This document shows positions 3,030 through 61,129 of a DNA stretch of 64,000 nt, piece after piece; position 1 is the stretch's first letter; each line of letters begins with the position of its first letter. A program made the position numbers and the translations under genes. Where the stretch lies: NCBI GenBank assembly GCA_035559535.1, contig DATMBG010000037.1, positions 1-64,000 on the forward strand, given 5' to 3'. Source of the DNA: Candidatus Limnocylindrales bacterium (GTDB taxonomy: Bacteria; Moduliflexota; Moduliflexia; Moduliflexales; JAUQPW01). The notes beneath the pieces were generated by a model. The model saw only the letters and a program-made list of their open reading frames with translations, was not told the DNA's origin and did not search any database.

Positions 3030-3662
3030 ATGGAGGTTAATTATAAGGTCAATATCAATACCGCGGACGATAAAGAGCTTCTAAGTGTATTTAAAACTGA
3101 AGAGTTAGTCTGGGCAGTTAAATCTGGCCGTCCTTATAACAGTATTGAAGAACTTTATCGGGTAGAAGGGATTGACGAGGACCTCTTTGAGAAAATCCGA
3201 GATAGGATTATCGTGGAAGACTTCTCAGAGCAAGGTTTTATGGGGGTTGCCGATGTACGGGAAAGTGAAGAGTTGCAGGAAGGGGTTATTCCGGGATTTG
3301 ATATGGAAGAGCCGGAGGAATTTACCGGAGCTAAGGACCTAAGGATTGCGGTGGGAGAGATCAACGACGAAGAAGCCGAGATGAAGGAAATGTTCAGGAT
3401 TATAAAAGCACCTTCCGAATTGGAACGGCTGGAGGAAGAAGAAGAACTCCTAGCTGATCAAACTATAGAGGAAGAACGAGAAATAATTCCTGGCTATGAA
3501 GCTGAGACCAAGAAAATGCAAGAGGAATGGGACTCAGAGCAGAAAGAAGATAAAACCGGAGGAAACCACACTCCAGGAAGAAAATCTAAGGTTCGAGAAA
3601 AAAAGTCAGATAAAAAGCCTAAAGGATCCATTTCTAAAACTCATACAAATGATGAATCATAA
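3030..3662 (+). CDS. Helix-hairpin-helix protein with charged C-terminal tail
   Basis: 210 aa. Residues 5-62 match a helix-hairpin-helix domain of the ComEA type (VNINTADDKELLSVF, then a second hairpin around residues 33-58). Such domains bind DNA non-specifically or mediate protein contacts. Unlike ComEA there is no signal peptide or membrane anchor, so it should be cytoplasmic. Residues 70-210 are strongly Glu/Lys-rich and probably disordered or coiled-coil. AAGGAAGTG precedes the ATG at a good distance. It is driven by a sigma-54 promoter with the paired enhancer, which is unexpected for a DNA-binding housekeeping protein. Function not known; a link to DNA uptake is not supported by neighbours. 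Confidence 0.7.
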   Translation: MEVNYKVNINTADDKELLSVFKTEELVWAVKSGRPYNSIEELYRVEGIDEDLFEKIRDRIIVEDFSEQGFMGVADVRESEELQEGVIPGFDMEEPEEFTGAKDLRIAVGEINDEEAEMKEMFRIIKAPSELERLEEEEELLADQTIEEEREIIPGYEAETKKMQEEWDSEQKEDKTGGNHTPGRKSKVREKKSDKKPKGSISKTHTNDES

Positions 3663-3715
3663 GCTGTGAATATAAACTGATTCCTGACTCATGATTTATC
3701 GTTTCATGACTCATC

Positions 3716-4660: not shown

Positions 4661-4801
4661 AATTCTGATTTTAAAGCTATCGGAGCATGGGTTTATTTCA
4701 AAAGGGACGATCACGCAGGATTGTTCTGGGTATATTATGTCTTCTCTTTGACAGATTGATTAAGTCCTAAAACTTAGGATTTATATTAAAGGAGTGTAGC
4801 C

Positions 4802-15413: not shown

Positions 15414-17063
15414 CTAGTGAAGGGAACTGGCCTGTTGAGTTTTTTCGTCGATATTCTGAGCGCCTTCCGGTCCTAATCTATGAAATACTTCAAGATTCTC
15501 CGGCCCTTCGGCCATCAGGAAACCTACCAGACCCCGTTCTAACCGCGAGAGGGCGTGGTCCACTAAGATGTAACGTCCAGGAACTTCCAGTTTAAACTCT
15601 ACCATGGCCGCCCCCCCGGGGGGTACCAGCGTTGTCTGCACATCGGTCAGGGGAGGAGCCGTGAGGGATGCCTGGTTATAAACCCGATCAAAGATTTCAC
15701 CAATCACATGGAAGGACGAAGTAAAGTTGGGACCTCCGACGCCAAAGAAGATACGTACCGTCTCCCCTACCTTGGCTTGCATAGGATATTCCTTGGTGAG
15801 AGCTCCAACTGCTCCATTCAATACGAAGTATTCAGGCGTTTCCGCCAGGAGTTTCTCTACACTGAATTCTTGATACCCATGTTTTCCAAAGGGATTTTGA
15901 GTATAAATCTCACCCTGCATCACATAAAACTCACGATTCACTTCAGGTAAGCCACCTTCCGGTTCTACCAGGATAAGACCGTACATCCCATTGGCAATGT
16001 GATGGGCTACCATGGGGGTTGCACAGTGATAGACGTAAAGGCCTGGATTCATCGCTTTAAAAGTAAAGGCTTTCTCTGTATTGGGAGAAGCCTGTGTTAC
16101 GGCTGCACCTCCGCCGGGGCCAGTCACTGCATGGAAATCTACCGAGTGGATCATTCGGCTATCTCCATGGTTTTTCAAATGGACTTCCACGGTATCGCCC
16201 ACACGTACCCGTATAAAGGGGCCTGGAACCTTGCCATTGTAAGTCCAGTAGGTGTAGGTGGTACCCTCTGCCAACTGCCCCTTCAGCTCTATAGTTTCTA
16301 GATCTACCCGTACTGTCTGAGCAGGACGGGTTCCAATGGGAGGGGGTAAATCCGTGGGATTACGAACGACGCTTACCCCCGCAGGAGAAATGATTTCTCC
16401 GGCTTCTCCAACAACGATTTTACCTTCCATTCCAGCTTGCCGATGACCGGGTAATGAGCAAAAGTAGGGGAACTCTCCTTTCTTAGTCACCCGGAATGTA
16501 ATTACACTACTGGCTCCTTTACGGGCAATCTCTTCAGACTTGGCATTAAAATCGGGAAAGGTAATATCATGTAAAACCCCATCCCCGTTAATCAAGGTAA
16601 CCTGTACCACATTATCCAACATAACCGGCAGGGTGGGATTCACAACCCCATCAATAGCTCCTCCTACGCCGATAAAGACAAGTTTTTCCTCGGCAAGGCT
16701 CGTCTTCAATGTGAAGGTAACATTAGGTGTGTAAGAGGTAGGACTTTTCTCTGTAGCAGAAGTATTCTCCCCACTCCTGGAGGCAGAGTCTGCGGGTTGG
16801 GATACAGTTTTCACACCTGTATCCGCAGATCTCGGCAGCCCTAAGGCATGTTCGTGGATCCCAGTACTTGTAGTACCCTTCGTGTCAAGGGTGGAATCCG
16901 CCGACTTGGATAAAGTTTTTACCTCTCTATCTGAAGATTGTGCAGAAATGGGAATATTCGTATTACCGAGATTATAAAGAACAATAGCAGCCACCACAAA
17001 GGCAACAAGAACCCCCATGGCCAACAGTGAAAGAATCCGATCATACTTATTGGCGTTGTTCAT
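15414..17063 (-). CDS. nirK: Copper nitrite reductase with extra N-terminal cupredoxin and membrane anchor
   Basis: 549 aa from the ATG at 17063, chosen because AGGAGGGA (17072-17079) sits just upstream; the frame extends 11 codons further. Order: N-terminal TM anchor (8-31), low-complexity Ser/Thr linker (35-110), a cupredoxin domain with type-1 Cu ligands His165, Cys202, His207, Met212, then a two-domain NirK core. Core ligands: type-1 His306, Cys347, His355, Met360; type-2 His311, His346, His503; catalytic Asp309 and His452. Every key residue is present. It reduces nitrite to NO in the periplasm; the fused cupredoxin probably feeds electrons. The Cys347-His355 loop is one residue shorter than in classical NirK. 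Follows a hemerythrin gene by 25 nt. Confidence 0.92.
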   Translation of the reverse strand: MNNANKYDRILSLLAMGVLVAFVVAAIVLYNLGNTNIPISAQSSDREVKTLSKSADSTLDTKGTTSTGIHEHALGLPRSADTGVKTVSQPADSASRSGENTSATEKSPTSYTPNVTFTLKTSLAEEKLVFIGVGGAIDGVVNPTLPVMLDNVVQVTLINGDGVLHDITFPDFNAKSEEIARKGASSVITFRVTKKGEFPYFCSLPGHRQAGMEGKIVVGEAGEIISPAGVSVVRNPTDLPPPIGTRPAQTVRVDLETIELKGQLAEGTTYTYWTYNGKVPGPFIRVRVGDTVEVHLKNHGDSRMIHSVDFHAVTGPGGGAAVTQASPNTEKAFTFKAMNPGLYVYHCATPMVAHHIANGMYGLILVEPEGGLPEVNREFYVMQGEIYTQNPFGKHGYQEFSVEKLLAETPEYFVLNGAVGALTKEYPMQAKVGETVRIFFGVGGPNFTSSFHVIGEIFDRVYNQASLTAPPLTDVQTTLVPPGGAAMVEFKLEVPGRYILVDHALSRLERGLVGFLMAEGPENLEVFHRLGPEGAQNIDEKTQQASSLH

Positions 17064-17088
17064 ATCTATCTCCCTCCTCATTTCAAAT

Positions 17089-17571
17089 TTATCCATTTGA
17101 AAGATTTCTGCAACATATCTTATAACGCTCTTCAGGTATATTCTTCATAGCTGCAAAAATTGCTTCCCTCTCCGGATCAGAGAGGGATTTATCAATGGTG
17201 GGATAAAGAATATACTCCTCCTTTTGGTTATGCAAAGAAAGTACCGATAAAAGCATTTGCTCTTCTTCCTCACTATCAGGATCCTGCTTTTGAACCTTTT
17301 CATGAATCGCTTCTAAATGTTTTCTTATCTGCTCATGTTCTATCCGCATGACCCGGGTGGGACCACTGTAAGCCATACCGGTTTTTTGTTCAAACATGAG
17401 GAAAAGAATCTCCTCTTCCCAAACAATATGTCTTTGCAGGCCAAACTTAAATTCCTTGAAGAATTCTTTAGCTTTTGGATAATCCACCTTTTTAAGCCTT
17501 TGAAAATTTCTAAAAAGCTCATCTAAACGGTTATGGTCTTTTTCAAAGTAGGTCTTAATACTCTCTTCCAT
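17089..17571 (-). CDS. Hemerythrin-domain protein 2 (nirK operon)
   Basis: 160 aa, one HHE domain: His13 in EKDHNRL, His49/Glu53 in LQRHIVWEEEILF, His80 in RIEHEQI and His115/Glu119 in LHNQKEEYILYP form a plausible diiron site. Immediately upstream of nirK and surely co-transcribed; AAGGAG serves its ATG. Its place in front of nirK suggests NO or O2 sensing or buffering, which is inference. The C-terminus carries a Cys pair (KICCR). No sigma-54 or enhancer site was found before it. Confidence 0.88.
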   Translation of the reverse strand: MEESIKTYFEKDHNRLDELFRNFQRLKKVDYPKAKEFFKEFKFGLQRHIVWEEEILFLMFEQKTGMAYSGPTRVMRIEHEQIRKHLEAIHEKVQKQDPDSEEEEQMLLSVLSLHNQKEEYILYPTIDKSLSDPEREAIFAAMKNIPEERYKICCRNLSNG

Positions 17572-17731: not shown

Positions 17732-19111
17732 TCAGAAAGAGATACGGTATCGCTTTATCTTCCTATAAAGCGAGTCCCGGGAGATACCCAAGATCTCAGC
17801 CGCTTTGGATTTGTTTCCCCCGGCCACCCTTAAAGCCTGTTCAATGGCAAACTTCTCCACCTGTTCCAGGGAAAGCGCGGAAGTGCCATAAAGCGTAGCC
17901 TCTCTTGCCTGTTCAAAGTCTCCTTCCGATTTATGTTTCTTAAACATTGTTTTAATATCCTGCACCGTGAGATTCTCTTTTTTCTCCCCGGCTGTTGCTA
18001 TAATTCCTTCCATCATGCTTTCCAATTCCCGGACATTGCCGTAAAACGGATAGTCTTGAAGAAGGCCGAATACTTCCTTTTCTATCCTTAACCGGTGTCC
18101 ATATTTCTCTCCATATTTCCTTACAAACCTTTCCGCCAACAAGGGGATATCTTCCCTTCTCTCCCGCAAAGGGGGAATAACAATGGTCAACGTCGATATC
18201 CGATAATAAAGGTCTTCACGGAGGTACTGACCTTTAAGCTCCTCCACAGGTCGATTAGAAGCTGATAAAACCCGAACATCCACTTCTATTTCTCGGGTAT
18301 CTCCAATGGCTCGCACTCTCCCATCCTGAAGTACTCGAAGCAACTTAACCTGAGCGTCTTTAGGCATCTCGCTGATCTCATCCAGAAATAGAGTCCCTCC
18401 GGTAGCCGATACAAAAAGTCCTTTATGATCCCGGATGGCCCCTGTAAAAGAACCCTTCTTGTATCCAAAAAGCTCGCTCTCAATCAACTCTTTAGGTAGG
18501 GCTCCACAATTGATTGGCACAAAGGGTTTATCCCTCCTCTGACTCCTGCGATGAATTGCCCTTGCCAAAATCTCTTTGCCGGTTCCGGTCTCACCGATTA
18601 TCAGCACCGGGATGTCGGATTGGGAGGCTACCAAAGCCTTGTCAACAACCTCTCGCATCTTCCTAGAGATAGCAACGATTTCCTCAAACCCTGATATGCT
18701 ATCCACCTGATCCTGAAGCTTGGCCACTTTCTCTCTCAATTCGCACATCTCCACAGCCCGTCCTACCTTTTTCAGAATCATATTCTTATCAAATGGCTTT
18801 AAGATGAAATCGTCGGCTCCCCGCTTTATGGCCTCAACAGCTGTCTGGATGGTGCCATATCCGGTCATGAGAATGACGGCTATGTCAGGGTCCACCTCCT
18901 TGAGCTTCTCCATGAGGGCAATGCCATCGATCAACGGCATCATGAGATCTACCAGTGCCAGACTGATAGTACCCCCGGTCTTAAGGATCTCAAGAGCCTC
19001 CCCTCCAGATAGAGCCACAGAAACACCGTATCCGTTCTTTTCGAAGAGGCTAGCAAGGGTCTCGACCATCTCTCTATCGTCATCAACAATTAAAATTTTA
19101 GGCAATTCCAT
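17732..19111 (-). CDS. NtrC-family sigma-54-dependent response regulator
   Basis: 459 aa. Receiver domain (1-120; Asp10-Asp12 and phospho-acceptor Asp56), AAA+ central domain with Walker A IIGETGTGKEILAR near 170 and the sigma-54-contacting loop GSFTGA near 220, and a Fis-type helix-turn-helix at the end (KSKAAEILGISRDSLYRKIKRY). GSFTGA replaces the usual GAFTGA, a known variant. It should bind enhancers and remodel sigma-54 polymerase. It overlaps the kinase gene by 14 nt, and that operon has its own sigma-54 promoter and enhancer pair, so positive autoregulation is likely. It is the only sigma-54 activator in the window and the best candidate reader of the palindromes described here. Confidence 0.93.
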   Translation of the reverse strand: MELPKILIVDDDREMVETLASLFEKNGYGVSVALSGGEALEILKTGGTISLALVDLMMPLIDGIALMEKLKEVDPDIAVILMTGYGTIQTAVEAIKRGADDFILKPFDKNMILKKVGRAVEMCELREKVAKLQDQVDSISGFEEIVAISRKMREVVDKALVASQSDIPVLIIGETGTGKEILARAIHRRSQRRDKPFVPINCGALPKELIESELFGYKKGSFTGAIRDHKGLFVSATGGTLFLDEISEMPKDAQVKLLRVLQDGRVRAIGDTREIEVDVRVLSASNRPVEELKGQYLREDLYYRISTLTIVIPPLRERREDIPLLAERFVRKYGEKYGHRLRIEKEVFGLLQDYPFYGNVRELESMMEGIIATAGEKKENLTVQDIKTMFKKHKSEGDFEQAREATLYGTSALSLEQVEKFAIEQALRVAGGNKSKAAEILGISRDSLYRKIKRYRISF

Positions 19112-20285
19112 TGATTTTACCCTCTAAGTTTTCATACTGGAAAAGTGGAAAACGGATACTAACCGTAGTCCCTTTTCCCTCTTTGCTAACCACTGTTATC
19201 GAACCATCATGTTCTCGGACAATGTTTTGAGCTATGGATAAACCCAGTCCGGTCCCCTTCCCGGACTCCTTAGTGGTATAAAATGGTTCAAAAATATGTG
19301 GAAGGTGTTTCTCGGGTATACCTATGCCGTTATCGGTTATGCTGATCTCAATCTGAGGGTTACCCTGAGCCTGGTGAAACCTGTTCTGAGCTAAGTCGAA
19401 GGATCTGTTTTGAGCAGGATCGAAGGAGGTTGAATTCACGAGCCTAGAGGCCACCCGAATTTCACCTCCATCAGGCATTGCGTCAATGGCATTCATGAGA
19501 ATCGCTGACAGCAAAGCTTCAATCTGGCTTCGATCTGCCAGGATCCTCTTACCTCGCAACTCACTCTCATCCAAAATAACATTGACCTTTCTAACCTTTA
19601 AAGTGGGCTTGAAGAACGTAATCACAGAATCCACCAACTCTCTAAGTTCCGTGCTTTTTTTCTCCATGCTCGTTCTACGTGCAAACTGAAGGAGCTTTTG
19701 AACAAACTCCTGACAAAATTTTATTCCCCCTTCCAGCCTGTCAAGCTCCGGTTGTAGTAGCGGATCTTGAAATCTTTCCTTTATCATCTGGACTCTAAGA
19801 AGCATTGAAGTTAAAGGAGTATTTAAGTGGTGGGCGGTTCCAGCAGCCATCTTACCCATGGAGGTGAGTTTTTCCATTTCAATCAACCATTGTCGTAGCT
19901 TGATCTTCTCGCGGATATCTTTGGCTACTTCTATGAAATAAGGTTTGTGAGTCTGGGGATCATGGAAATACGAGAGGTTGATGCTTACATCTATTTCCTC
20001 CCCATTCCTTGCCAGTCTCTTAGTTTCAAGATCGTATACCTTTTCACCATTTTTGACCCTATCCATGAGCATCTTAAACTCTTCTTCCCTGCCCCTGGGT
20101 ATCGTCTTTAACAACCTCCCAAGAACTTCCTTACGTCCATAACCGTAAAGTTTCTCTGCGGTTGGGTTCCACTCTATGATCCTTCTGTCTGGATTGAATA
20201 AAACTACTGCCTCGGCAGAGAGTACCAATAACGAACACGCCCCGCAGGTAGGAGCGAGTCTCGGCTCCTCAAACCTTCTTTTCAT
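19098..20285 (-). CDS. Cytoplasmic PAS-domain sensor histidine kinase
   Basis: 395 aa without membrane helices: PAS domain (about 17-125), HisKA with phospho-acceptor His152 in AHHLNTPLTS, and HATPase with Asn265 (NAIDAMPDGG), DNGIGIPE and GTGLGLSI. A CxxC (PTCGAC, residues 13-17) lies at the N-terminus and could sense redox state or bind a cofactor. Residues about 286-309 (SFDPAQNRSFDLAQNRF...) are a near-duplicated insertion between the N and G1 boxes that looks like an in-frame dispersed repeat. It pairs with the overlapping NtrC-type regulator. The stimulus is unknown. Confidence 0.92.
   Translation of the reverse strand: MKRRFEEPRLAPTCGACSLLVLSAEAVVLFNPDRRIIEWNPTAEKLYGYGRKEVLGRLLKTIPRGREEEFKMLMDRVKNGEKVYDLETKRLARNGEEIDVSINLSYFHDPQTHKPYFIEVAKDIREKIKLRQWLIEMEKLTSMGKMAAGTAHHLNTPLTSMLLRVQMIKERFQDPLLQPELDRLEGGIKFCQEFVQKLLQFARRTSMEKKSTELRELVDSVITFFKPTLKVRKVNVILDESELRGKRILADRSQIEALLSAILMNAIDAMPDGGEIRVASRLVNSTSFDPAQNRSFDLAQNRFHQAQGNPQIEISITDNGIGIPEKHLPHIFEPFYTTKESGKGTGLGLSIAQNIVREHDGSITVVSKEGKGTTVSIRFPLFQYENLEGKINGIA
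19360..19430. repeat. In-frame dispersed repeat inserted in the kinase gene
   Basis: A purine/pyrimidine-biased segment with internal near-duplication (GAAGGATCTG / GAAGGAGG and repeated GAGCTAAGTCGAA-like units) encodes residues 286-309 of the kinase. It sits at a loop of the ATPase domain and keeps the frame. It resembles the TTCGAT-arm repeat at 7676-7756. Confidence 0.45.
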
Positions 20286-20917: not shown

Positions 20918-22099
20918 ATGGATTTTAATGATCGTCCCTTTACAGTGGTGTGGGAAACGACAAGGGCCTGTGATCTGGCCTGTCTTCATTGTCGAGCCGA
21001 TGCGGTCGTCCAACGTAACCCTTTCGAACTTACAACCGAAGAAGCCTATCAACTCATCGGCATGATCAAGGAATTTAATCGGCCTTACCCCTTGTTCATT
21101 TTAACAGGAGGCGACCCCCTCAAACGGCCTGATATTTATGAAATTATTGCTTCGGCTACTCAGGAAGGTTTACGGGTTGCCATGACCCCTTCGGCAACTC
21201 CCCTGGTTACAAAGGATGTCATAAAACGCCTGGCTGAGGCTGGTCTAACTCGTCTTGCTTTGAGTCTGGATGGGAGTATGGCCGAAGTTCATGATGGATT
21301 CAGGGGTGTCTCCGGTTCTTTTGCCCATACCTTACATATCGTAGAATGGTGTCGAGAGTTTGGTATTGAAACCCAAATTCATACCACCGTTACCCGACAT
21401 AGCCTGGAAGACCTACCTCGTATTGTAGATAGGATTGCCCCATGGGGTATCAAGCTATGGGCTTTGTTCTTCTTAATTGCGACCGGACGTGCCGCCCGTC
21501 CTGAAATTCGAAAGCTCAATATTCGTGCCAATGACTTTGAACGGGTCTTCAACTGGCTTTACGATTTGAGTAAATCTGCCCCCTATGATATCACCCCTCG
21601 GGAGGGATACCATTACCGGCGGGTCCTGTTACAAAGGCGAGCTCAGGAAATGGGTATACCCGTAGAGAGGCTCCTTAAACAAATCTCCCAAAAGCCCACT
21701 ACGCCCGGGGAATTAGTGTCTGTCCTAAACCGACCTCAGATCCCTCGAGCCCCATTGGGGGTAAACGATGGAAAAGGAATTGTCTTCATCTCTCATACCG
21801 GAACTGTACAACCCAGTGGTTTTTTACCCCATGGGGGGGGTAATGTACGAAAAAACCCTCTGACTGAGATTTACCGTCACTCCCCCCTATTTACCCAAAT
21901 CCGAGATTACTCTCAACTCAAAGGTAAGTGCGGAGTGTGTGAGTTCAAGGATATATGTGGAGGGAGTCGGGCCCGTGCCTATGCGGTAACAGGAGATTAT
22001 ATGCAAAGCGATCCTTATTGTATCTATCGCCCTCAAAAACCCAAAGAGAGTAATAATGGTTCCTTAATTAGGTCTGGTCAGCCTCGGTCGGGCTTTTAG
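20918..22099 (+). CDS. Radical SAM/SPASM protein, NirJ/AhbD-like
   Basis: 393 aa. The radical SAM cluster motif CDLACLHC (CxxxCxxC, residues 18-25) is followed by the TGGDPLKRPD SAM-binding segment (near 64) and a C-terminal SPASM-type cysteine set (CGVCEFKDICGGSRAR near 335-350, then Cys371). This matches the NirJ/AhbC/AhbD group that modifies heme precursors and its peptide-modifying relatives. Since the nitrite reductase here is the copper type, heme d1 synthesis is unlikely; an alternative-heme-pathway role or another modification is possible. It diverges from the sensor kinase across a shared enhancer pair. The ribosome-binding site is weak. Confidence 0.8.
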   Translation: MDFNDRPFTVVWETTRACDLACLHCRADAVVQRNPFELTTEEAYQLIGMIKEFNRPYPLFILTGGDPLKRPDIYEIIASATQEGLRVAMTPSATPLVTKDVIKRLAEAGLTRLALSLDGSMAEVHDGFRGVSGSFAHTLHIVEWCREFGIETQIHTTVTRHSLEDLPRIVDRIAPWGIKLWALFFLIATGRAARPEIRKLNIRANDFERVFNWLYDLSKSAPYDITPREGYHYRRVLLQRRAQEMGIPVERLLKQISQKPTTPGELVSVLNRPQIPRAPLGVNDGKGIVFISHTGTVQPSGFLPHGGGNVRKNPLTEIYRHSPLFTQIRDYSQLKGKCGVCEFKDICGGSRARAYAVTGDYMQSDPYCIYRPQKPKESNNGSLIRSGQPRSGF

Positions 22100-22280: not shown

Positions 22281-22321
22281 AAATTGGTTGAAATAAACCA
22301 ACGGTTTATTTCAACCAATTT
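22281..22321. repeat. Perfect 19-bp inverted repeat with 3-nt loop
   Basis: AAATTGGTTGAAATAAACC pairs exactly with the complement at 22303-22321 across an AAC loop. It is AT-rich and lies between the enhancer-like site and the sigma-54 promoter of the receptor operon, about 180 bp after the radical SAM stop codon. It could be a terminator, a cruciform or a large operator. Confidence 0.75.
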
Positions 22322-22419: not shown

Positions 22420-22434
22420 TGGTATGGTTGTTGC
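22420..22434 (+). promoter_or_regulatory. Sigma-54 promoter of the PqqU-like receptor/quinoprotein operon
   Basis: TGGTATGGTTGTTGC, exact GG-N10-GC spacing. The start codon is about 295 bp downstream, leaving a long leader in which I see no other gene. Confidence 0.7.
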
Positions 22435-22728
22435 TTTTCAGAAGGGAGGGATTTGCCTGCTTCATCTATGAGTCGCATAGGGCTAAGAGCAAGTCTCCCT
22501 TCCAGACTCGAGTCGTTTAGGGATCTTAGCGGATCTCCCTTCCAGACCATAGTAGATGAGAAGCACGTTTACATTTAAAGTGCCGAAATTTTCTACCAAG
22601 CTACGTTATACAACCAGGTTATAACCTTACCATTAACCAAATTTGTAAGGGTGTTCTATGCGATTACCCTTAAACGGGGCAGTTCCATGTAACTGTACTC
22701 TGAAGGGCAAACAAGTGAGGTCTCAAAG

Positions 22729-24810
22729 ATGAGGAAAAGTTTTTTTAATCCATGTATGCTATTTCTTCTGATTATGAGGATGGTTATGTTAGGGATGGAG
22801 CCCTTAAGGATTCAGGCAGTAGAAGCACCAAAAGAACCGACTAAACTGGAACCCGTTATCGTTACTTCGACACGAATCGAACAACCCCTGGTTAAAGTTC
22901 CCGCAGCGGTTGGAATTGTTGAAAAAGAGGATATTCAACTCGGTCAACAGACTGTGGGTTTAGAAGAATCTTTAGAAAAGATCCCAGGGCTCCTCTTTCA
23001 AAATCGGTTTAACTTTGCTCAGGATTTGCGAATTTCTATTCGGGGATTTGGAGCCCGGGCCGGATTCGGAATCCGTGGAATCAAGATCCTGTTAGATGGA
23101 ATTCCAGAAACTTTACCTGACGGTCAGGGTAACCTGGATAGCATTGACCTGGGTTCGGCTGAACGGATCGAGGTTATTCGAGGTCCTGTTTCTTCCCTCT
23201 ATGGAAATGCATCGGGAGGCGTAATTAGTGTCTTTACAGAAAGTGGACCGGAGCAACCGTTTCTAGAAAGTCGGGCCTCATTGGGAGAATTTGGCTTTCA
23301 ACAATATCGATTGAAATCTGGAGGTGAGTGGGGGCCCATGAATTATTTGGTGAATTTAACCCGCCTGGAACTGGATGGATGGAGAGAGCATAGTGGAACG
23401 GAGAATACATTATTTAACAGTAAATTTCAGTTTACCCTTAACGAGGCTTCCAACTTAACAGCACTGGTTAATTTTGTTGATACGACTTCAGATAGCCCGG
23501 GCGGCCTGACCCAGGCTCAGGTTGACTCAGATCGCCGGCAGGCCAGTAGCCGTAATCTGCAATTTGATGCCGGAGAAGAAGTAAACCAGGAACGGGTAGG
23601 TATGGTCTACCGAAACCAGTTTACTCCAAACCATGAACTTACAGCCACTACCTATTATACTTCCCGATCTTTGGATAGTAACCTTCCATTTCAGAGCGGA
23701 GGGGCTGTAGATCTGGAACGATTTGTGGTGGGAGGGGGAGTCAAATACATTTACTCCCGTCAGATCTTCGGTAAACAAAATCGGCTGGTAGTTGGGATAG
23801 ACCTGGAGCATCAAAATGACGATCGTCAGCGGTTTAACAATGACAATGGAAAGCGTGGCAGTTTAACCTTTGACCAAACCGAAAAGGTTAGTACGGTGGG
23901 ACCCTTTGTCCAAAACGAGTTTAGTTTCCTGGAAAATCTGACTTTAACCTTAGGAGGCCGTTATGATCGGGTTCAATTTGAGGTGGACGATCATTTCCTG
24001 TCCGATGGGGACGACTCTGGGGATCGGACTCTGGATAAATTCAGTCCCAGGGTTGGGTTACTTTACAGTTGGTCTCCATCCTTCAATTTGTATGGAAACA
24101 TCTCAACTACCTTTGAAACTCCAACTACCACAGAATTTGCCAACCCTTCAGGAGCCGGGGGGTTTAATCCGAACCTGGAACCGATGACCGCAGTCAATTA
24201 CGAAGTAGGGGTTAAAGGGGACTTCAAAGGAAAGTTACGTTACGAACTGGCCGCGTTTACCGTTCGAGCTAAGGATGAACTGATTCCCTTTCAATTACCG
24301 GACTTTCCAGGTCGTACCTTTTATCAGAATGCAGGAAAATCGACACGGAATGGAATGGAATTAGGTCTCAAGGCAGAACTCCTTAAAGGTCTCACCCTCA
24401 CCGGAGCTTATACCTATTCAGACTTCTTTTTCGAAGAATTTCAGACAGCAGAGGGGGTATTCGATGGCAATCGAATCCCGGGAATCCCTAGAAATCAGAT
24501 ATATGGAGAAATTGCTTATTTTCATCCTTCAGGGTTATACGGGGTTTGGAACGTTTTATTTGTAGATGAAGTTTTTGCAGACAATGCTAACACGGTAAAG
24601 AGTGATGCCTATACGCTTTCCGATTTACGCCTGGGATACACGAAGCACTCTGGGAATTGGGAGTTCTCTCCTTTTATTGGACTGAACAATTTATTTGATG
24701 AGGAATATAACGCCAATGTGATCATTAACGCCGGAGGGGGGAGGTTTTTCGAACCGGCACCGGGTTTCAACGTATATGGGGGAATCCAGCTAGGTTATTC
24801 TTTCTTCTAA
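22729..24810 (+). CDS. pqqU: TonB-dependent outer-membrane receptor, PqqU/YncD-like
   Basis: 693 aa: signal peptide (about 1-31), TonB box-like LEPVIVTSTR (41-50), plug domain (about 55-170) and a 22-strand-type barrel ending in a terminal Phe (LGYSFF). The plug stretches NFAQDLRISIRGFGARAGFG and LDGIPETLPDGQG, the SSLYGNASGGV segment, and the barrel-end phrase FDEEYNANVIINAGGGRFFE match my recollection of E. coli YncD, now PqqU, the importer of pyrroloquinoline quinone. The next gene is a PQQ enzyme and the following three energise TonB receptors, which fits PQQ capture. A siderophore-type substrate is the alternative. GAGGT precedes the ATG. Confidence 0.78.
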   Translation: MRKSFFNPCMLFLLIMRMVMLGMEPLRIQAVEAPKEPTKLEPVIVTSTRIEQPLVKVPAAVGIVEKEDIQLGQQTVGLEESLEKIPGLLFQNRFNFAQDLRISIRGFGARAGFGIRGIKILLDGIPETLPDGQGNLDSIDLGSAERIEVIRGPVSSLYGNASGGVISVFTESGPEQPFLESRASLGEFGFQQYRLKSGGEWGPMNYLVNLTRLELDGWREHSGTENTLFNSKFQFTLNEASNLTALVNFVDTTSDSPGGLTQAQVDSDRRQASSRNLQFDAGEEVNQERVGMVYRNQFTPNHELTATTYYTSRSLDSNLPFQSGGAVDLERFVVGGGVKYIYSRQIFGKQNRLVVGIDLEHQNDDRQRFNNDNGKRGSLTFDQTEKVSTVGPFVQNEFSFLENLTLTLGGRYDRVQFEVDDHFLSDGDDSGDRTLDKFSPRVGLLYSWSPSFNLYGNISTTFETPTTTEFANPSGAGGFNPNLEPMTAVNYEVGVKGDFKGKLRYELAAFTVRAKDELIPFQLPDFPGRTFYQNAGKSTRNGMELGLKAELLKGLTLTGAYTYSDFFFEEFQTAEGVFDGNRIPGIPRNQIYGEIAYFHPSGLYGVWNVLFVDEVFADNANTVKSDAYTLSDLRLGYTKHSGNWEFSPFIGLNNLFDEEYNANVIINAGGGRFFEPAPGFNVYGGIQLGYSFF

Positions 24811-24860
24811 TTGTTTCAAACTATAGCTGACCCATTCCTGCTTATAAGGAGGCGAGAAAT

Positions 24861-26684
24861 ATGATGAGAAAGCTTGGTTATCTGGCAGTTATCCTGATTA
24901 GCTTAATCAGCTTACAATTATTCCAAAGCGCTCAAGGCGAAGAAGTAACCGATGACCGCTTATTAAATGCCTATCAGGATAAAAAAAATTGGCTCCTGTA
25001 CGGGCGGGACTATGCGAATCAGCGATATAGTCCCCTCGATCAGATCCATGTCCATAATGTTAAAGACCTGACTCTCCGATGGATCTATCAGACAGGGAAG
25101 GTAGGATCTTTTCAGACCAATCCCCTGGTGGTGGATGGGGTGATGTATATTACCACCCCTTATAATCACGTTATTGCCTTAGATGCCCGAACCGGCAAGC
25201 AAATCTGGCGGTATGAGCATAAACTTCGCACGGAGAAGTTCTGTTGCGGACCTGCTAATCGGGGAGCTGCTGTAGGTTATGGGAAGGTATACATGGCGAC
25301 CATCGATGCCCGATTGGTTGCCCTGGATCAAAAGACTGGTAAGGTCATATGGGATGTGGAAATCACATACCCTGGAGAGAGAAAGAGTGAGGTGCCAGAG
25401 CCCTTGCTGAGAGACAAAGAGTTACAGGGAGGAACCATTATAGGAGCTACAGGATACAGTGCCAATATAGCCCCTTTGGTCTATAAGGGGAAGGTCATTA
25501 TAGGGACCACAGGTGCCGGCTATGGCTTACATCTCAAGCTCAAAGAAGGGGATCAAACTATCATTTCGGTGGGTGGGCTCTCAGGAGGAGATCACGGCTC
25601 TCGCGGTCTCATAGTTGCCTATGATGCCCAAAGCGGAAAGGAGATTTGGAGGTGGTATAGTGTTCCAGAAAAGGGCTGGGAAGGGGAGTGGCGAACTACA
25701 ACACCGGATGGTTATGATCTCCACCGGGATATTGAAGCAGAAAAGGAAGCGTTTCCAAAATACCCGGATGCCTGGAAGGTGGGGGGAGGTTCCATCTGGT
25801 CGAGTCCTGTGGTAGATCCAGAATTGGGCCTGCTCTATGTGGGAACCGGAAACCCTTCTCCTCAGATGGATGACACAACCCGTCCTGGAGATAATCTTTA
25901 TACCGTGAGCTTGGTAGCTCTGGATGTGGAAACGGGTTTACTCAAATGGTATTATCAGCAGGTCCCCCACGACCGTTGGGATTACGATGTAGCCAGTCCT
26001 CCTATATTGTTGGAGGTAACAATAAACGGACAAAAAATCAAGGCCGTTGGGCAGGCAAGTAAGCTAGGGTGGTTTTATATCCACGATCGACAGACGGGCA
26101 AGCTCTTGCTGAAATCAGAACCTTTTTTACCCCAAGAGAACTTGTTTGCTAAACCTACCCCCCAAGGGGTCCGCATTACACCCGCCGGTGCTGAAGGTGC
26201 CACCTGGTCCCCGGTGGCCTATAGTCCTCAAACGGAGGCGGTTTATATTTCTGCCGTCCGGATACCTTCCCGATTTATTTCCAGGACCCTAATACCTGAA
26301 GAAGGCAAACCCTGGAAAAGCTATACGTTCTTTATCCCTACTCAAGAGGAGCGCTCAGGTACCTTCACAGCCATTCATACTTCCACCGGGAAGATTCTGT
26401 GGCAGAAAAAAACCGAGCAACCTATGGTAGGTGGAGCTCTGGCAACGGCGGGTGGTTTGGTCTTTACGGGCGAAGGAAATGGATATTTTGACGCTTTTGA
26501 TGCCAGGACCGGAGAGCTCCTCTGGAGGTTTCAGTGTGGGGCCGGTGTAAACGCTCCACCTATTTCCTATGAGATAGATGGAGTTCAATATATTGCTGTT
26601 GCCGCCGGAGGAAATACCCTTATGGGATCTCCCCTGGGGGATGATATCCTGGTTTTTGCCCTCCCGGAGAGGAATGAAAGGTAG
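24861..26684 (+). CDS. Periplasmic PQQ-dependent dehydrogenase (quinoprotein)
   Basis: 607 aa with Sec signal peptide (about 1-26) and an eight-bladed beta-propeller of W-motif repeats (for example ALDARTGKQIWRYEH, AYDAQSGKEIWRWYS, AFDARTGELLWRFQ). The vicinal Cys128-Cys129 that stacks on PQQ is present. Metal/active-site candidates are Asn331 (GTGN), catalytic Asp374 and Asp376 in HDRWDYD; Asp244 may stand where methanol dehydrogenase has Glu. The Asp-x-Asp pair occurs in lanthanide enzymes (XoxF/ExaF), but also as WDMD in membrane glucose dehydrogenase, so metal and substrate are open. No cytochrome domain. Strong AAGGAGG before ATG; 50 nt after the receptor gene. Confidence 0.88.
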   Translation: MMRKLGYLAVILISLISLQLFQSAQGEEVTDDRLLNAYQDKKNWLLYGRDYANQRYSPLDQIHVHNVKDLTLRWIYQTGKVGSFQTNPLVVDGVMYITTPYNHVIALDARTGKQIWRYEHKLRTEKFCCGPANRGAAVGYGKVYMATIDARLVALDQKTGKVIWDVEITYPGERKSEVPEPLLRDKELQGGTIIGATGYSANIAPLVYKGKVIIGTTGAGYGLHLKLKEGDQTIISVGGLSGGDHGSRGLIVAYDAQSGKEIWRWYSVPEKGWEGEWRTTTPDGYDLHRDIEAEKEAFPKYPDAWKVGGGSIWSSPVVDPELGLLYVGTGNPSPQMDDTTRPGDNLYTVSLVALDVETGLLKWYYQQVPHDRWDYDVASPPILLEVTINGQKIKAVGQASKLGWFYIHDRQTGKLLLKSEPFLPQENLFAKPTPQGVRITPAGAEGATWSPVAYSPQTEAVYISAVRIPSRFISRTLIPEEGKPWKSYTFFIPTQEERSGTFTAIHTSTGKILWQKKTEQPMVGGALATAGGLVFTGEGNGYFDAFDARTGELLWRFQCGAGVNAPPISYEIDGVQYIAVAAGGNTLMGSPLGDDILVFALPERNER

Positions 26685-26835
26685 GAGATCAGGAACCAGA
26701 CCGAGATCGAAAAGATTCTGGAGTTGAGCCAGATGAGCTGTACCTGAGAATTAATGGCTTCTAGGGTTTTAGGAAGTAGGGTCTGGGATCCAGGGTCAAG
26801 TACCTTAGAGACCCTAAACCCTCAACTTTGGTAAG

Positions 26836-27534
26836 ATGATGGACTTTATAATACACGGAAATGGTTTAATTGAATTGATCATAAAAGGCGGGATCTTAAT
26901 GATTCCTATCGGGTTATGTTCTATCCTGGTTGTTGCCATTGTTCTTGAACGGATGTATCGATTTCACCGGGCCAGAAGTTATTCTGAGGATTTGGTTCCT
27001 AAACTGAGGGATTTAATCGCTGCGGATAAATTCGAAGAGGCTATAAGATTATGCCAAAAATCTCGAGGTATTGTAGCCCGGGTTCTTGAAGAGGTAATCC
27101 ATAACCGTCACCGATCCGTTGAAGATATCGAAACAAGGATCTCAGTCCTCGGATCTTGGTACTTAAGAGACCTATCCCGGTACCTTCGAGGGCTGGAAGT
27201 TATTGGGAATATAACCCCGTTAATGGGCCTATTGGGAACCGTGTTTGGTATGATCAAAGCCTTTATGAAGGTAGCCGAGTTAAGCGAAAAGGTAAATCCC
27301 AGTGTTCTGGCGAGTGGTATCTGGGAGGCTTTGTTAACCACGGCTGCTGGCTTGATTGTAGCTATTCCAGCTTTACTGGCTTATCATTATTTTGAGGGAA
27401 GAGTTGATGAATATGCATTTCGTATGCAAAACTATAGCATGGACTTACTACAAACCTTGAAAGGACAGGAGTATGATCAAGTTTACCAGGAGAAAGCGGG
27501 TCGAAAACAGCCTGAATATGGCTCCTTTGATTGA
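26836..27534 (+). CDS. exbB: ExbB/TolQ-family proton channel subunit
   Basis: 232 aa, three transmembrane segments (about residues 15-36, 120-145, 165-187) with the conserved GLLGTVFGMIKAF and AGLIVAIPALLAYH stretches of MotA/TolQ/ExbB proteins. With ExbD and TonB it converts the proton gradient into work at the outer-membrane receptor. The end of the gene overlaps exbD by 62 nt, which is unusually long. It is 151 bp after the quinoprotein gene, on the same strand. Confidence 0.9.
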   Translation: MMDFIIHGNGLIELIIKGGILMIPIGLCSILVVAIVLERMYRFHRARSYSEDLVPKLRDLIAADKFEEAIRLCQKSRGIVARVLEEVIHNRHRSVEDIETRISVLGSWYLRDLSRYLRGLEVIGNITPLMGLLGTVFGMIKAFMKVAELSEKVNPSVLASGIWEALLTTAAGLIVAIPALLAYHYFEGRVDEYAFRMQNYSMDLLQTLKGQEYDQVYQEKAGRKQPEYGSFD

Positions 27535-27892
27535 CATGGTATTCCTCTTGCTGATCTTTTTTCTTCTGACTTCCACTTTTATGCGCCTTGATCCGGGTCT
27601 GGAAGTAAACCTGCCAGAAGCTCAATCTTCCCATGTACAGGAAGCAGAAGAACCTGTTGTGATCTATTTGACCAAAGATAACCAATTATTTCTGAACGCT
27701 AAACCGATTTCCTGGGAGGATTTGAAGACGTATCTCCAGAAGAGCTTAGCCGATAAACCGAATAACGCTGTGGTCCTTAAAGCCGATGCAGGGGTACCTT
27801 TTGGGCTCTTCGTTAAAGTGATGGACATCTCGAGGCAAGCTGGTGTCTTGGATTTAACTGTTTCCACCCGTATTCCTCAGGGATTTCATTAA
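27473..27892 (+). CDS. exbD: ExbD/TolR-family protein
   Basis: 139 aa: short basic cytoplasmic N-terminus (MIKFTRRKR), one TM helix with the essential proton-carrying Asp (NMAPLIDMVFLLLIFFLL, Asp20) and a periplasmic domain. Its first 20 codons are read within the end of exbB in another frame (62-nt overlap). Moving the start downstream would remove the basic segment before the TM helix, so I keep it. Confidence 0.9.
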   Translation: MIKFTRRKRVENSLNMAPLIDMVFLLLIFFLLTSTFMRLDPGLEVNLPEAQSSHVQEAEEPVVIYLTKDNQLFLNAKPISWEDLKTYLQKSLADKPNNAVVLKADAGVPFGLFVKVMDISRQAGVLDLTVSTRIPQGFH

Positions 27893-27921
27893 TTCTTTTT
27901 TGGAGATTTGGTACAACTCCT

Positions 27922-29100
27922 ATGAAAATTGCTCTGATTATCTCTATCCTGATTCACATAGGCGTTATCATCTTTTTAAATAGTCGGTCGTGGATTCCCG
28001 ATCAGCAAAAACCTCCATCCCTTCAAATACGAGTTTCTCTAAGAAACGAAGAACAAAAAGGGGTCGGGGATAATAAAGAAGTCCAGATCCTTCCAAAACC
28101 CCTAGAAGTCGGGTCGAATCCACCCTCTTCTTTCCCCCGACCGCTCGATTTCGACTTCCCATCTGTTCCTCGACCTGAAGTAACCCATCCCTTTCAGGAT
28201 AGGCAATTTGTTGAGGATACCCTCCAACCTGTCAAACCTGAATCCAGAGGTCAGAAGAGGGTTCCGGTTCTAGAAGAAGCCCCATTACCTCCAAAACCCC
28301 CGGAATTATCCAGGGTCCTGGAAAAACCGGATAGGTCAAATCAGACGATCCCAGAACCTCCGGTGAAACCGGAAATCTGGAAACCCGAACAGGTTCCCAT
28401 GCCCCCCAAACCGATTCCAACGGTAAAAGAAATCGCTCCACAGGCAAAGAAGGCGGTAGTCAGGAACCTTAAACCGGCTCAAAAAGTGCAAAAACCCAGG
28501 CCAACAACAACTCCAAAACCGACTACGCCCGTTCCGCCTTTGTATAAACCGATTGAGCAAACCCTAACTCAAAAGGTAGAACAAAACATTCCTTCTGACA
28601 AGGAAGTTTCCAAAGAGGTGTCAACTTCTATCATTCAAACGCCACCCCAGGACTCCGGGTCAAAGATTCTAGAAACAATTCCTGGAGAGGGGGAAGATTA
28701 TCTGCCCCCTGAACAGGTTGGTATGACCACCAGCCAGGTGGGTACGGATTTTCCTGTGCCTGCAGGTCAACCATCTGCTGAAACTAAACCAAAGGAACCC
28801 GCCTCCCCCGCAGATATGAAATTTGACTCGCTGACCGATCCTGTTCCACGCTATAATCCACGCCCTGAGTATCCCCGTGAGGCCAGAAGATTTGGATGGG
28901 AAGGAACCGTACTCTTAATCATACAGGTTCTTCCTGATGGAAACACCGGGAAAATCGAGATTAAAGAAAGCTCCGGATATTCAGTTCTGGATCAGGCAGC
29001 CGTACAGGCCATTCGCAGGTGGCGGTTTACACCAGCCCAGCGGCAAGGAATATCTGTTCCTGCTACCATAGAACTTCCTGTCATCTTCAAGTTGAACTAA
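27922..29100 (+). CDS. tonB: TonB-family energy transducer
   Basis: 392 aa: N-terminal TM anchor (2-20), a very long Pro/Lys/Glu-rich periplasm-spanning region (about 30-300) and a C-terminal TonB domain with YPREARRFGWEGTVLLIIQV and AVQAIRRWRFTPA. It is longer than E. coli TonB (239 aa) because of the linker. Together with the two preceding genes it forms a dedicated energiser for the PqqU-like receptor encoded upstream. Confidence 0.88.
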   Translation: MKIALIISILIHIGVIIFLNSRSWIPDQQKPPSLQIRVSLRNEEQKGVGDNKEVQILPKPLEVGSNPPSSFPRPLDFDFPSVPRPEVTHPFQDRQFVEDTLQPVKPESRGQKRVPVLEEAPLPPKPPELSRVLEKPDRSNQTIPEPPVKPEIWKPEQVPMPPKPIPTVKEIAPQAKKAVVRNLKPAQKVQKPRPTTTPKPTTPVPPLYKPIEQTLTQKVEQNIPSDKEVSKEVSTSIIQTPPQDSGSKILETIPGEGEDYLPPEQVGMTTSQVGTDFPVPAGQPSAETKPKEPASPADMKFDSLTDPVPRYNPRPEYPREARRFGWEGTVLLIIQVLPDGNTGKIEIKESSGYSVLDQAAVQAIRRWRFTPAQRQGISVPATIELPVIFKLN

Positions 29101-38318: not shown

Positions 38319-38993
38319 TTATCCCTCCCCCAGATAGATCACCCTTGGTTTTGTCCCTAACTCTTCCAAGAGTCTAAAAGCTCTTTGTTCTTTAGCCAGT
38401 TTGGCCACCTGGCTGTTTGGATCCTCTAGATCGCCAAAGTAGATGGCACCACCGGTACACGTTTGTTGACAGGCCGTTTTCACATCCCCATCCCGCAGTT
38501 CTCTCCCCTCCGCCTGGGCTTTAACTTTAGCAGCCTCTATACGGTGGACACAGAAGGTACATTTCTCCACTACTCCTTTAGGCCGGAGGGGCACATCGGG
38601 ATTAAGATTTTCTGTAGTGGGATACTCTGGTTGCTTCCAATTAAAGTAGCGTACTCCATAAGGACAGGCTACCAGGCAATAGCGGCAGCCAATACAAAGG
38701 TCGTTATTCTGTGCCACAAGCCCATCGTCCCGTTTATAGGTAGCTCCCACCGGGCAGACCTGCACACAGGGGGGTTCATCACAATGCATGCAGGGACGTG
38801 GGAGGAAACGGGCTTTTACAAGAGGATATTCCCCCTCCACGATGGCCAATACCTGGTTCCAGAAGATATTTCTTCCCTTCTGGCTTTCTTCCGGGCCAGC
38901 CACCGGTTGATTATTTTCTGCCACACAGGCTACAGTACAGGCCTGACAAGCAGTACACCTATCCAGATCGATCACCATTCCCCATCTAGCCAT
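38319..38993 (-). CDS. PsrB/DmsB-type four-cluster ferredoxin subunit
   Basis: 224 aa from the ATG at 38993 (GGAGGTGA just upstream; a GTG 9 nt earlier is possible). Four [4Fe-4S] sets: CTACQACTVAC, CMHCDEPPCVQVCP, CIGCRYCLVACP and CTFC with CQQTC near the end. It passes electrons between the molybdoenzyme and the NrfD subunit on the periplasmic face. No own signal peptide, so it is co-exported with the Tat partner. It overlaps the catalytic gene by 8 nt. Confidence 0.93.
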   Translation of the reverse strand: MARWGMVIDLDRCTACQACTVACVAENNQPVAGPEESQKGRNIFWNQVLAIVEGEYPLVKARFLPRPCMHCDEPPCVQVCPVGATYKRDDGLVAQNNDLCIGCRYCLVACPYGVRYFNWKQPEYPTTENLNPDVPLRPKGVVEKCTFCVHRIEAAKVKAQAEGRELRDGDVKTACQQTCTGGAIYFGDLEDPNSQVAKLAKEQRAFRLLEELGTKPRVIYLGEG

Positions 38994-41421
38994 ATAACTC
39001 ACCTCCCTCCACCTTGTAGATTTTCACACGGGTAGAGAAAAAGGCTGCAAGGCCTCCCAACAAGTCATTTTCGTGAACCAAAATTTCATTGGGATTAACA
39101 CCCCGTCCCTTTGCCCAACGACCATAGGCTTTATGTCCCAACTCATAGGGGATATTGACCACGTAAGGCATCGCTCCAGGATAGAGCTTGGCACGCGTTT
39201 TGATCCTACCAACCTGGGATTCCACCCAGACCCAATCACCGTCTGAAATTCCCAGCTTCTCTGCCGTCTTCGGATTGATCTCTACCCAGCTATCCCAACG
39301 CATCCCTACATGCAAGCCAAGGATCTGTTGCAACCAGGAAGCATTAGCTCCTCGCCCTTCCGCGTGAGTCATAAGCTTGTACGTATTTAGGAGGAATGGA
39401 TATTCTTTCTCATCCCCGACATGGCGAATTGGTTCATAATGAGGGAGATAAACTTCATCGCCACGTGCCTGAAGTTTTAAACCCTGAAGCATCTCCTCCA
39501 TTGCCTGCTCTTGGCTAATCTTCCGAGCTTCGGCGTCTTTCTTGGCCAGATCTTCTAGTTTATGCTCCAGATTTTGGGAGAAAAACTCAAACTTTTTGGA
39601 AGGGGTCTGGAACCCATGGGCCCAATCCCGAAACTTATAAGGGGGATCCGCCCAGAACCCTTCTTGTTTGAAGCGCTCCCAGAACTCTTCGAACGTTGCA
39701 GCTACAATAGTTCCTCTTTGGGCCTCAAAGAGTCCTTTTACTTTATCTTTGATCAACTCTTCGTAATTCTTCCAAGGGAAAGACTCTGCCATTGTTCCCC
39801 CCATGGTATGGGCAATCTGGATAAGGACATCGCCGGTGCTCCGGGTATTGTAAAGGGGTTTGACCACGGGCTGACGCAGGCTGATTACCGGATAACCCAG
39901 ACTCGGATAAATCACATCGTCATGCCAACGTTCCAGATAAGTATGATCCGGGAGGATGAGGTCTGCAAATTGGGCCGACTCACTCATGAAGGGAGTAAAA
40001 TCCACAATGAAGGGAACTTCTTTAAAGGCCTTGTAGAAGCGATTGACGTCAGGTGTAGAAAAGAGAGGATTTGTATAGTAAAGCAGAAGGGTATCAGCAG
40101 GATACGGCCCCTCACCCAGGAGGAATTCCGGGAGATCCTGGTAAACCTTACCGGCCAGGGGAAAACGTTTGGTACCCGCATAATCGATACGGGGTTGCTT
40201 GTTTCCCCTCTTGGCTAGATCGTCTTGTACAATATCCGGCCATTTGCTGAGGGGGGGATTGTTCTGAACGATAACCCCCCCTGGCACCTCTAAACTCCCC
40301 ACAAGGGCGTTAAGAGCATGGATGGCCATTCGGTTGTAGACCCCGTTGGACTGCATGCTGGCTCCCCGTTCCCCGGCCGCAATAGCAGGCTGGGTTGTCG
40401 CAAATTCTCGAGCCAGGCGTACAATCGTCTCTTCAGAAACGCCCGTAATGGAGGCAACTTTCTCGGGTGGATAGTCCCTAAGAACGAGGGTTTTGAAACC
40501 TATATGCTCTTTGCCCGTATTTTCATCGGTCCAATCTTCAAAGCCAAAAGTATGCTCTGTAATGAACTCTTGGTTATAGAGTCCTTCTTTAATGATCACA
40601 TGGGCGATACCCAGGGCTAGAGCACCGTCGGTACCTGGATTGATGGGCACCCATTCATCTGCCTTAGCAGCAGTGATGGAAAGACGGGGTTCGATTTGAA
40701 CAATCTTGGCCCGGATGGGACGTCCTCGACGCATATGGCCATAAGCCCGAAGGAGTCGCGTTGTGGGTCGCCAGGCCTCAATAAACCCCCCCCCAAAGCA
40801 AAGGAGATAGTTGGTATGATCCCAATCATATCCTAAATATGCTTTGACTCCCTGAGTCAGATAATGGGCTTGAGCACTTCCATCGGCACAAATACTGCTG
40901 TGCCCCACATGATTGGGAGATCCATAGGCAGCCATAAAACGGTCAATGAGACTTCCCATCTGTCCCCGATTGCGACCGCTCATGAAAATGAGTCTATGGG
41001 GTTCCCCCTTCTCTCTCAGAGCTTTGAGTCTGTTGACTACTGTGGCAATGGCTTCCTCCCAACTGATCTGCTCCCAATTTCCTGAACCCCGTTCACCTAT
41101 TCGACGTAAGGGTCCTTTGATACGATCAGGATCGTAAAGGATCTGGAGACCGATGTGCCCTTTAGGACAGAGCCGCCCTTGATTAATTGGGTGGCGGGGA
41201 TTCCCTTCAATCTTAACCGCTCGTCCATCAACAACCCGAACCAGAATCCCACAACCGGCAGGACATTGAAGGCAAACACTGGGAACTTGATGCTCCTCTC
41301 GAATCCGTTGAGGTGGCGCAACTCCTCCTTGCACAAAGTTCTTGGAAAGGTATCCTGTCGCCGCCATAGTTACGCCTCCTGCGAGAGATGTTTTAATAAA
41401 GGCTCGTCGTGAGAATTGCAT
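38986..41421 (-). CDS. Psr/Phs/Ttr-like molybdopterin oxidoreductase, catalytic subunit
   Basis: 811 aa with Tat signal SRRAFIKTSLAGG (residues 4-16). The N-terminal [4Fe-4S] set is Cys-x2-Cys-x3-Cys (CLQCPAGC, about 50) with the fourth Cys in RLCPKGH (about 84). The probable Mo-ligand Cys lies in HSSICADGS (about 174). It belongs to the complex-iron-sulfur molybdoenzymes with PsrB and NrfD partners, which reduce polysulfide, thiosulfate, tetrathionate, arsenate and similar, or work in reverse. I cannot choose the substrate. It heads an operon of up to seven genes that runs through the porin to PFOR. GGAGGAAA precedes the ATG; sigma-54 promoter at 41491-41505. Confidence 0.88.
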   Translation of the reverse strand: MQFSRRAFIKTSLAGGVTMAATGYLSKNFVQGGVAPPQRIREEHQVPSVCLQCPAGCGILVRVVDGRAVKIEGNPRHPINQGRLCPKGHIGLQILYDPDRIKGPLRRIGERGSGNWEQISWEEAIATVVNRLKALREKGEPHRLIFMSGRNRGQMGSLIDRFMAAYGSPNHVGHSSICADGSAQAHYLTQGVKAYLGYDWDHTNYLLCFGGGFIEAWRPTTRLLRAYGHMRRGRPIRAKIVQIEPRLSITAAKADEWVPINPGTDGALALGIAHVIIKEGLYNQEFITEHTFGFEDWTDENTGKEHIGFKTLVLRDYPPEKVASITGVSEETIVRLAREFATTQPAIAAGERGASMQSNGVYNRMAIHALNALVGSLEVPGGVIVQNNPPLSKWPDIVQDDLAKRGNKQPRIDYAGTKRFPLAGKVYQDLPEFLLGEGPYPADTLLLYYTNPLFSTPDVNRFYKAFKEVPFIVDFTPFMSESAQFADLILPDHTYLERWHDDVIYPSLGYPVISLRQPVVKPLYNTRSTGDVLIQIAHTMGGTMAESFPWKNYEELIKDKVKGLFEAQRGTIVAATFEEFWERFKQEGFWADPPYKFRDWAHGFQTPSKKFEFFSQNLEHKLEDLAKKDAEARKISQEQAMEEMLQGLKLQARGDEVYLPHYEPIRHVGDEKEYPFLLNTYKLMTHAEGRGANASWLQQILGLHVGMRWDSWVEINPKTAEKLGISDGDWVWVESQVGRIKTRAKLYPGAMPYVVNIPYELGHKAYGRWAKGRGVNPNEILVHENDLLGGLAAFFSTRVKIYKVEGGELYG

Positions 41422-51416: not shown

Positions 51417-51420
51417 ATTC

Positions 51421-60725: not shown

Positions 60726-60735
60726 AATTATAAGT

Positions 60736-60807: not shown

Positions 60808-60832
60808 CTATACTTCCATCCTTCCACCCGCC

Positions 60833-61123: not shown

Positions 61124-61129
61124 AAATGG

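Follow-up and report, generated by a model that had tools for sequence, protein, structure and literature searches.

A candidate operon joining a PqqU-type receptor, a quinoprotein and a TonB-ExbB-ExbD set in a bacterium that probably scavenges PQQ

The stretch of DNA analysed here (hereafter the window) comprises 64,000 nucleotides (nt), positions 1 to 64,000 of contig DATMBG010000037.1 in the assembly GCA_035559535.1 of Candidatus Limnocylindrales bacterium, which GTDB places in the Moduliflexota. On its forward strand lie five consecutive genes encoding a receptor of the type of PqqU, the importer of pyrroloquinoline quinone (PQQ), a periplasmic quinoprotein, and the three components of a TonB energiser:

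22729..24810, + strand, pqqU-type TonB-dependent outer-membrane receptor, 693 aa
24861..26684, + strand, periplasmic quinoprotein of the PQQ-dependent methanol/ethanol dehydrogenase family, 607 aa, with a Sec-like signal
26836..27534, + strand, exbB (MotA/TolQ/ExbB proton channel), PF01618 96.4 bits
27473..27892, + strand, exbD, PF02472 114.8 bits, with the conserved transmembrane Asp (NMAPLIDMVFLLLIFF)
27922..29100, + strand, tonB, TIGR01352 80.8 bits (cut-off 27.1)

Open reading frames (ORFs) and family searches agree with the original prediction on the order, the coordinates and the identity of these genes. The exbB and exbD genes overlap by 62 nt and the remaining intergenic gaps are 29-152 nt; since 51 nt separate the dehydrogenase gene from the receptor gene and 152 nt separate it from exbB, co-transcription of the five genes is not certain. 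In the predicted tonB product, an N-terminal transmembrane SxxxH motif (ISILIHIG) is followed by a Pro-rich linker and the TonB C-terminal domain. The SxxxH motif of TonB and the transmembrane Asp of ExbD, which we take to be the functional residues of the energiser, are thus both present along with all the expected domains. A sister species of the same genus has the identical five-gene order, preceded by the same promoter match, and a receptor that is 96% identical. The source assembly is 5.6 Mb in size and 95.8% complete, that of the sister species is 97% complete, and the phylum was represented by four genomes in our comparison.

The receptor is 37% identical to PqqU of E. coli. PqqU is its best NCBIfam model (484 bits, followed by a generic siderophore receptor model with 217), and PqqU is also nearest among solved structures by sequence (9c4o and 6v81, E ~1e-120, 408 bits), with FecA (E 1e-25, 93 bits) and other siderophore and cobalamin receptors far behind. 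An AlphaFold model built with 29 homologues (mean predicted local distance difference test score 88) gave the PqqU-PQQ complex as the top fold match (template modelling scores 0.88/0.92, root-mean-square deviation 2.1), followed by FecA (root-mean-square deviation 3.2). PqqU proteins are defined by an aromatic residue at position 99 and by Arg at positions 304 and 365 (Munder et al. 2025, PMC12124388), and this signature is complete in the receptor as F113 (Y/F99), R313 (R304) and R366 (R365). Of note, R304 fell in a gap of the first pairwise alignment, and multiple alignments set it on R313. R536 and Q84 of E. coli PqqU correspond to R529 and Q98, and K274 corresponds to E283. In a multiple alignment, the PQQ-site residues were almost invariant across 83 homologues. 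E283 was considered as a discriminating marker and is uninformative because Glu is almost universal at the K274 position (79 of 82 aligned homologues), the Lys of E. coli being the exception. Two receptors from other genomes (L011 and L012, 34% and 30% identical) were rejected as additional PqqU proteins, as they are without the signature. In the phylogenetic tree, the window receptor lies inside the PqqU set beside that of a metagenome-assembled genome (MAG), J063 (support 99), and placement among PqqU homologues has support of 99-100. Clustering with siderophore or cobalamin receptors, the outcome named beforehand as contrary to a PqqU assignment, did not occur.

The original prediction had seen no PQQ biosynthesis gene in the window, and none was found there. 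Searches of the whole genome and of the sister genome gave no match for pqqB or pqqC (pqqA, pqqD and pqqF were not searched), and PqqE-like proteins scored below 132 bits in both, against a cut-off of 381. Because initial pqqC searches were blank even in controls, we added positive-control genomes; in these three PqqU-carrying PQQ producers (G043, G067 and G070), pqqE scored 560-611 bits and pqqB and pqqC were also recovered. Genome-wide, the best PqqE-like match (C51:249013) was rejected as PqqE, as AhbD/NirJ2-type models score highest on it, all below their cut-offs. Similarly, a radical S-adenosylmethionine (SAM) gene upstream of the five genes (20918-22099) reached 102 bits with the PqqE model. 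Its product is a radical SAM/SPASM protein of family TIGR04053 (471 bits, cut-off 395), which had been overlooked in the original prediction; it is akin to the heme-pathway proteins AhbD/NirJ and its gene precedes the operon in both species. Accordingly, of the pqqABCDE set whose absence had been proposed as a check, pqqB, pqqC and pqqE are missing from both genomes, and no complete pqq operon, the finding named as contrary to scavenging, was detected. The PQQ alcohol dehydrogenase family is represented in the genome by 13 genes, of which 11 score above the cut-off, alongside only one PqqU gene; at least one of the quinoprotein genes shares a module with genes for a MoxJ-type binding protein and a cytochrome-like heme protein. 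Elsewhere in the order, two genomes of another family lack quinoproteins as well as a comparable PqqU; importer and clients thus occur together.

We consider it likely that the five genes form a PQQ-scavenging operon in a bacterium dependent on imported PQQ, serving the adjacent enzyme and about 12 other quinoproteins. Specifically, the PqqU-type receptor would bind extracellular PQQ at the outer membrane, the operon-encoded ExbB-ExbD-TonB would power its release into the periplasm, and PQQ would there load the co-encoded apo-quinoprotein together with the roughly 12 other periplasmic quinoproteins. Because loading would take place in the periplasm, no inner-membrane transporter would be needed. 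We infer PQQ transport, dedicated energisation, operon transcription, sigma-54 use and dehydrogenase catalysis from the sequence. The proposed capture of environmental PQQ is supported by the receptor signature together with the lack of pqqB, pqqC and pqqE. The accompanying proposal that PQQ activates an apo-dehydrogenase is likewise supported as a reading, except that the adjacent protein should not be seen as the sole client, because the genome encodes 13 quinoproteins in all and the subfamily of this one is atypical. The precedent is E. coli, a non-producer in which TonB-dependent, high-affinity PQQ import by PqqU activates a periplasmic quinoprotein (PMC12124388). The E. coli PqqU (YncD)/Gcd system resembles the present one in its TonB-dependent outer-membrane import, its periplasmic quinoprotein and its lack of PQQ production, all of which are here read from genes; it differs in relying on the general TonB-ExbBD, whereas here the energiser and a quinoprotein are encoded inside the pqqU operon, in having Lys rather than Glu at position 274, and in that 13 potential client enzymes are found here.

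The quinoprotein scored above the TIGR03075 cut-off by a narrow margin (491.7 versus 480.05), and the best fold matches of its model were PedH and XoxF. Aligned with PedH, it retains the vicinal Cys pair, the Arg, the PQQ-stacking Trp, the metal-binding Asn and the catalytic Asp; the replacement of the metal Glu by Asp is the sole departure among the active-site residues checked. An extra Asp lies two residues past the catalytic Asp (WDYD here, WDFD in PedH, WDYT in a Ca enzyme), and Asp occupies this lanthanide-coordinating position in all 13 quinoproteins of the genome. The protein thus shares its fold and the Asp at the lanthanide position with the lanthanide-dependent alcohol dehydrogenases PedH and XoxF, and differs from them in being only ~30% identical, in the changed metal Glu and in a subfamily insert. 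It probably acts on an alcohol and uses Ca or a lanthanide as its metal. The insert, ~24 aa long, marks a clade of eight proteins (support 100) in which the catalytic Asp survives in just two, the window protein and its orthologue in the sister species. Two paralogous groups have Gly instead (one made up of L133 and its sister orthologue L155, the other of L056), another group (L132) has Ala, and two related genomes carry Asn. A single base change separates the Gly and Ala codons from Asp codons, and the pattern is consistent with repeated loss of the catalytic Asp in the subfamily. The Asp-replaced members (L132 and L133, on contigs C7 and C25 of the window genome, L056 4195-6132, L149 and L150) are often also changed at the metal Glu, with the PQQ-contacting residues retained. 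Because the window quinoprotein retains the catalytic Asp, unlike most of the clade, it is probably an enzyme within a subfamily that appears to be drifting from catalysis.

Alternatively, the co-encoded quinoprotein may have no dehydrogenase activity and act instead as a PQQ binder in the periplasm, capturing the imported cofactor and handing it on. The replacement of the catalytic Asp in six of eight clade members, including the pqqU-adjacent copy in L056, and the persistence of the PQQ-contacting Cys pair, Arg and Trp would agree with such a role, for which the non-catalytic PQQ binder PqqT (as cited in PMC12124388) offers a precedent; moreover, no cytochrome c gene adjoins the window gene, unlike several other quinoprotein genes of the genome. 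Nevertheless, we regard this explanation as unlikely for the window protein, since this copy and its sister orthologue retain both Asp residues, with Asp in place of the metal Glu, and the window protein lies above the PQQ-dehydrogenase cut-off.

To place the arrangement in context, we surveyed 80 other PqqU loci, of which 65 have at least 4.3 kb of downstream sequence. The full order pqqU-quinoprotein-exbB-exbD-tonB was found at none of the 80, and 12 have a PQQ-, energiser- or one-carbon-related gene near pqqU. At the locus of J063, whose receptor is the closest relative (68% identity), four genes of a PQQ-alcohol-dehydrogenase/Ped-type ATP-binding cassette (ABC) system (TIGR03866, TIGR03864, TIGR03861 and TIGR03863, each above cut-off) are followed by pqqU-exbB-exbD (L042 4128-11851). 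This locus shares the receptor-energiser pairing with the window but lacks a quinoprotein between pqqU and exbB, has the ABC set upstream, and lies on a contig that ends before any tonB; no protein of the window genome scores above the cut-off for the substrate-binding family of this ABC system. Comparable ABC genes lie 3' of pqqU in L071 and L085. The Ped-type ABC system is a rare-earth transporter in P. putida (PMC6839425). The gene content of L042, L071 and L085 suggests that they may be combined rare-earth and PQQ uptake loci. Pairing of pqqU with exbBD recurs in L042, L081 and L059, the last from a gammaproteobacterial MAG in which pqqU is followed at once by exbB, exbD and tonB (3542-5448). 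In the gammaproteobacterial L056, pqqU is followed, as in the window, by a quinoprotein of the rare subfamily, with PedF- and PedH-like genes near; in L077, pqqU lies within a xoxF-moxR-formaldehyde-oxidation neighbourhood, and in L116, pqqU and a quinoprotein gene are divergent.

One possibility is that the receptor imports PQQ jointly with the catalytic metal, Ca or a lanthanide, and so delivers ready-made metal-PQQ to the lanthanide-type quinoproteins. In line with a hypothesis that Munder et al. drew from modelling, the metal would be co-ligated by Glu283, the counterpart of Lys274 in E. coli; because Glu is found in 79 of 82 homologues, metal co-import would, if true, be the norm from which E. 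coli departs. We hold this to be improbable. Also improbable is uptake by the receptor of a lanthanide chelate (lanthanophore) or some other metal chelate, so that the TonB set would supply metal, not PQQ, to the lanthanide-type quinoproteins. TonB receptors such as LutH do serve lanthanide-dependent dehydrogenases (PMC12997753, PMC6839425), the lanthanide-position Asp is present in 13 of 13 quinoproteins, and a pqqU homologue adjoins Ped-type ABC genes in J063, L071 and L085. However, the receptor has the full PQQ-binding signature, which hardly varies among 83 sequences, PqqU ranks first in both fold and sequence by a wide margin (in comparisons that did not include LutH or LanA directly), and ORF inspection revealed no metallophore synthesis genes near the operon. 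It is equally improbable that the genes are merely neighbours, so that a quinoprotein unrelated to the receptor and a TonB-ExbBD set of general use would lie behind it by chance: the gaps around the dehydrogenase gene and the J063 order, which has no intervening dehydrogenase, would allow this, but the gene order is kept in the sister species, pqqU of another phylum (L056) also stands next to a quinoprotein of the rare subfamily, and the pairing of pqqU with exbBD is repeated in L042, L059 and L081.

Several observations weigh against a PQQ-scavenging operon and need to be set beside its support. The receptor (484 bits) misses the 1200-bit cut-off of the NCBIfam PqqU equivalog model NF041535; eight further signature-bearing PqqU homologues, including those of Pseudomonas and Stutzerimonas, score 350-451, below the window receptor, and we count the receptor as a predicted PqqU by its residues and not under NF041535, 1200 bits being a threshold of the model and not a biological feature. 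Model ranking, solved structures, fold and site residues place the receptor with PqqU rather than siderophore receptors, as had been predicted; the tree falls on the same side, with support of only 12 for its deepest split, which separates PqqU from the nearest other receptors. Non-producer status was judged from pqqB, pqqC and pqqE. Most of the quinoprotein clade has Gly, Ala or Asn for the catalytic Asp. Finally, with related neighbours at just 12 of 80 loci, PqqU is usually unlinked to its clients.

Three non-coding features precede the receptor gene:

22281..22321, no strand, perfect 19+19-nt inverted repeat with a 3-nt loop, arms kept in the sister species
22420..22435, + strand, sigma-54-type -24/-12 promoter match TGGTATGGTTGTTGCT, consensus match, identical in the sister genome
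22470..22549, + strand, two 40-nt direct repeats in tandem within the operon leader, 73% identity between copies

Transcription of the operon would probably start from the sigma-54 promoter at 22420, ~300 nt 5' of the receptor start. Only two sigma-54-type matches occur in the 64 kb, versus 0.07 expected; the other, TGGTATATTACTTGCT at 1387-1402, lies 65 nt 5' of a response-regulator gene at 1467. The inverted repeat is located ~140 nt 5' of the predicted transcription start, where activator sites typically lie, and may be an enhancer site for a sigma-54 activator or the terminator of the upstream radical SAM gene; it is without a U-rich tail and was not flagged by terminator prediction, and the rest of the window contains no further perfect inverted repeat. 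A histidine kinase/sigma-54 response regulator pair is encoded at 17732-20285, and regulation by a sigma-54 activator is plausible. The sigma-54 control originally predicted is thus putative: the consensus match stands exactly at 22420 and is kept in two close species. The sister species differs at just two bases of the leader repeats. These match no Rfam family and were rejected as a regulon-wide element, being present in a single copy genome-wide. A riboswitch in the 5' leader was also rejected: Rfam gave a spurious match only, and the fold is no better than that of shuffled sequences (z -1.34).

Elsewhere in the window, inspection of ORFs by eye suggested copper nitrite reductase-like (15414-17096), molybdopterin oxidoreductase (38986-41421), nosZ/nosDFYL-like (49012-54296) and nitrate reductase/nitrite oxidoreductase-like genes (59475-63978).

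How new is this arrangement? PqqU-based scavenging without biosynthesis has been described across 22 phyla (Munder et al. 2025, PMC12124388), and these homologues share F/Y99, R304 and R365 with the window receptor, most carriers being without biosynthesis genes. That study examined synteny with biosynthesis genes, and the order pqqU-quinoprotein-exbBD-tonB is absent from its main text. In xoxF3 clusters (Voutsinos et al. 2024, PMC10875860), a TonB receptor likewise lies near a lanthanide-type quinoprotein, but was not identified as PqqU, and no exbBD-tonB set was described. In the open-access literature, we found no report of a single operon that unites importer, energiser and enzyme. The original prediction that a single-locus arrangement is undescribed therefore holds in part: the complete gene order seems unreported and is found at 0 of 80 loci, whereas PqqU scavenging itself is published, and because partial orders also recur elsewhere, novelty is limited to the gene order. 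The parts are known; their complete set in a single operon appears to be new.

Because most PqqU genes are unlinked to client enzymes, assignment of the PqqU substrate rests on residues alone. An operon of this kind, in a genome with 13 quinoproteins and without pqqB, pqqC and pqqE, strongly supports, through its genetic context, the view that distant homologues of PqqU (37% identity to that of E. coli) serve PQQ, and the J063 and L056 relatives tie pqqU to Ped/PedH-type, lanthanide-related genes. Alcohol oxidation in this lineage would depend on a vitamin from neighbours, making it a testable case of cross-feeding.

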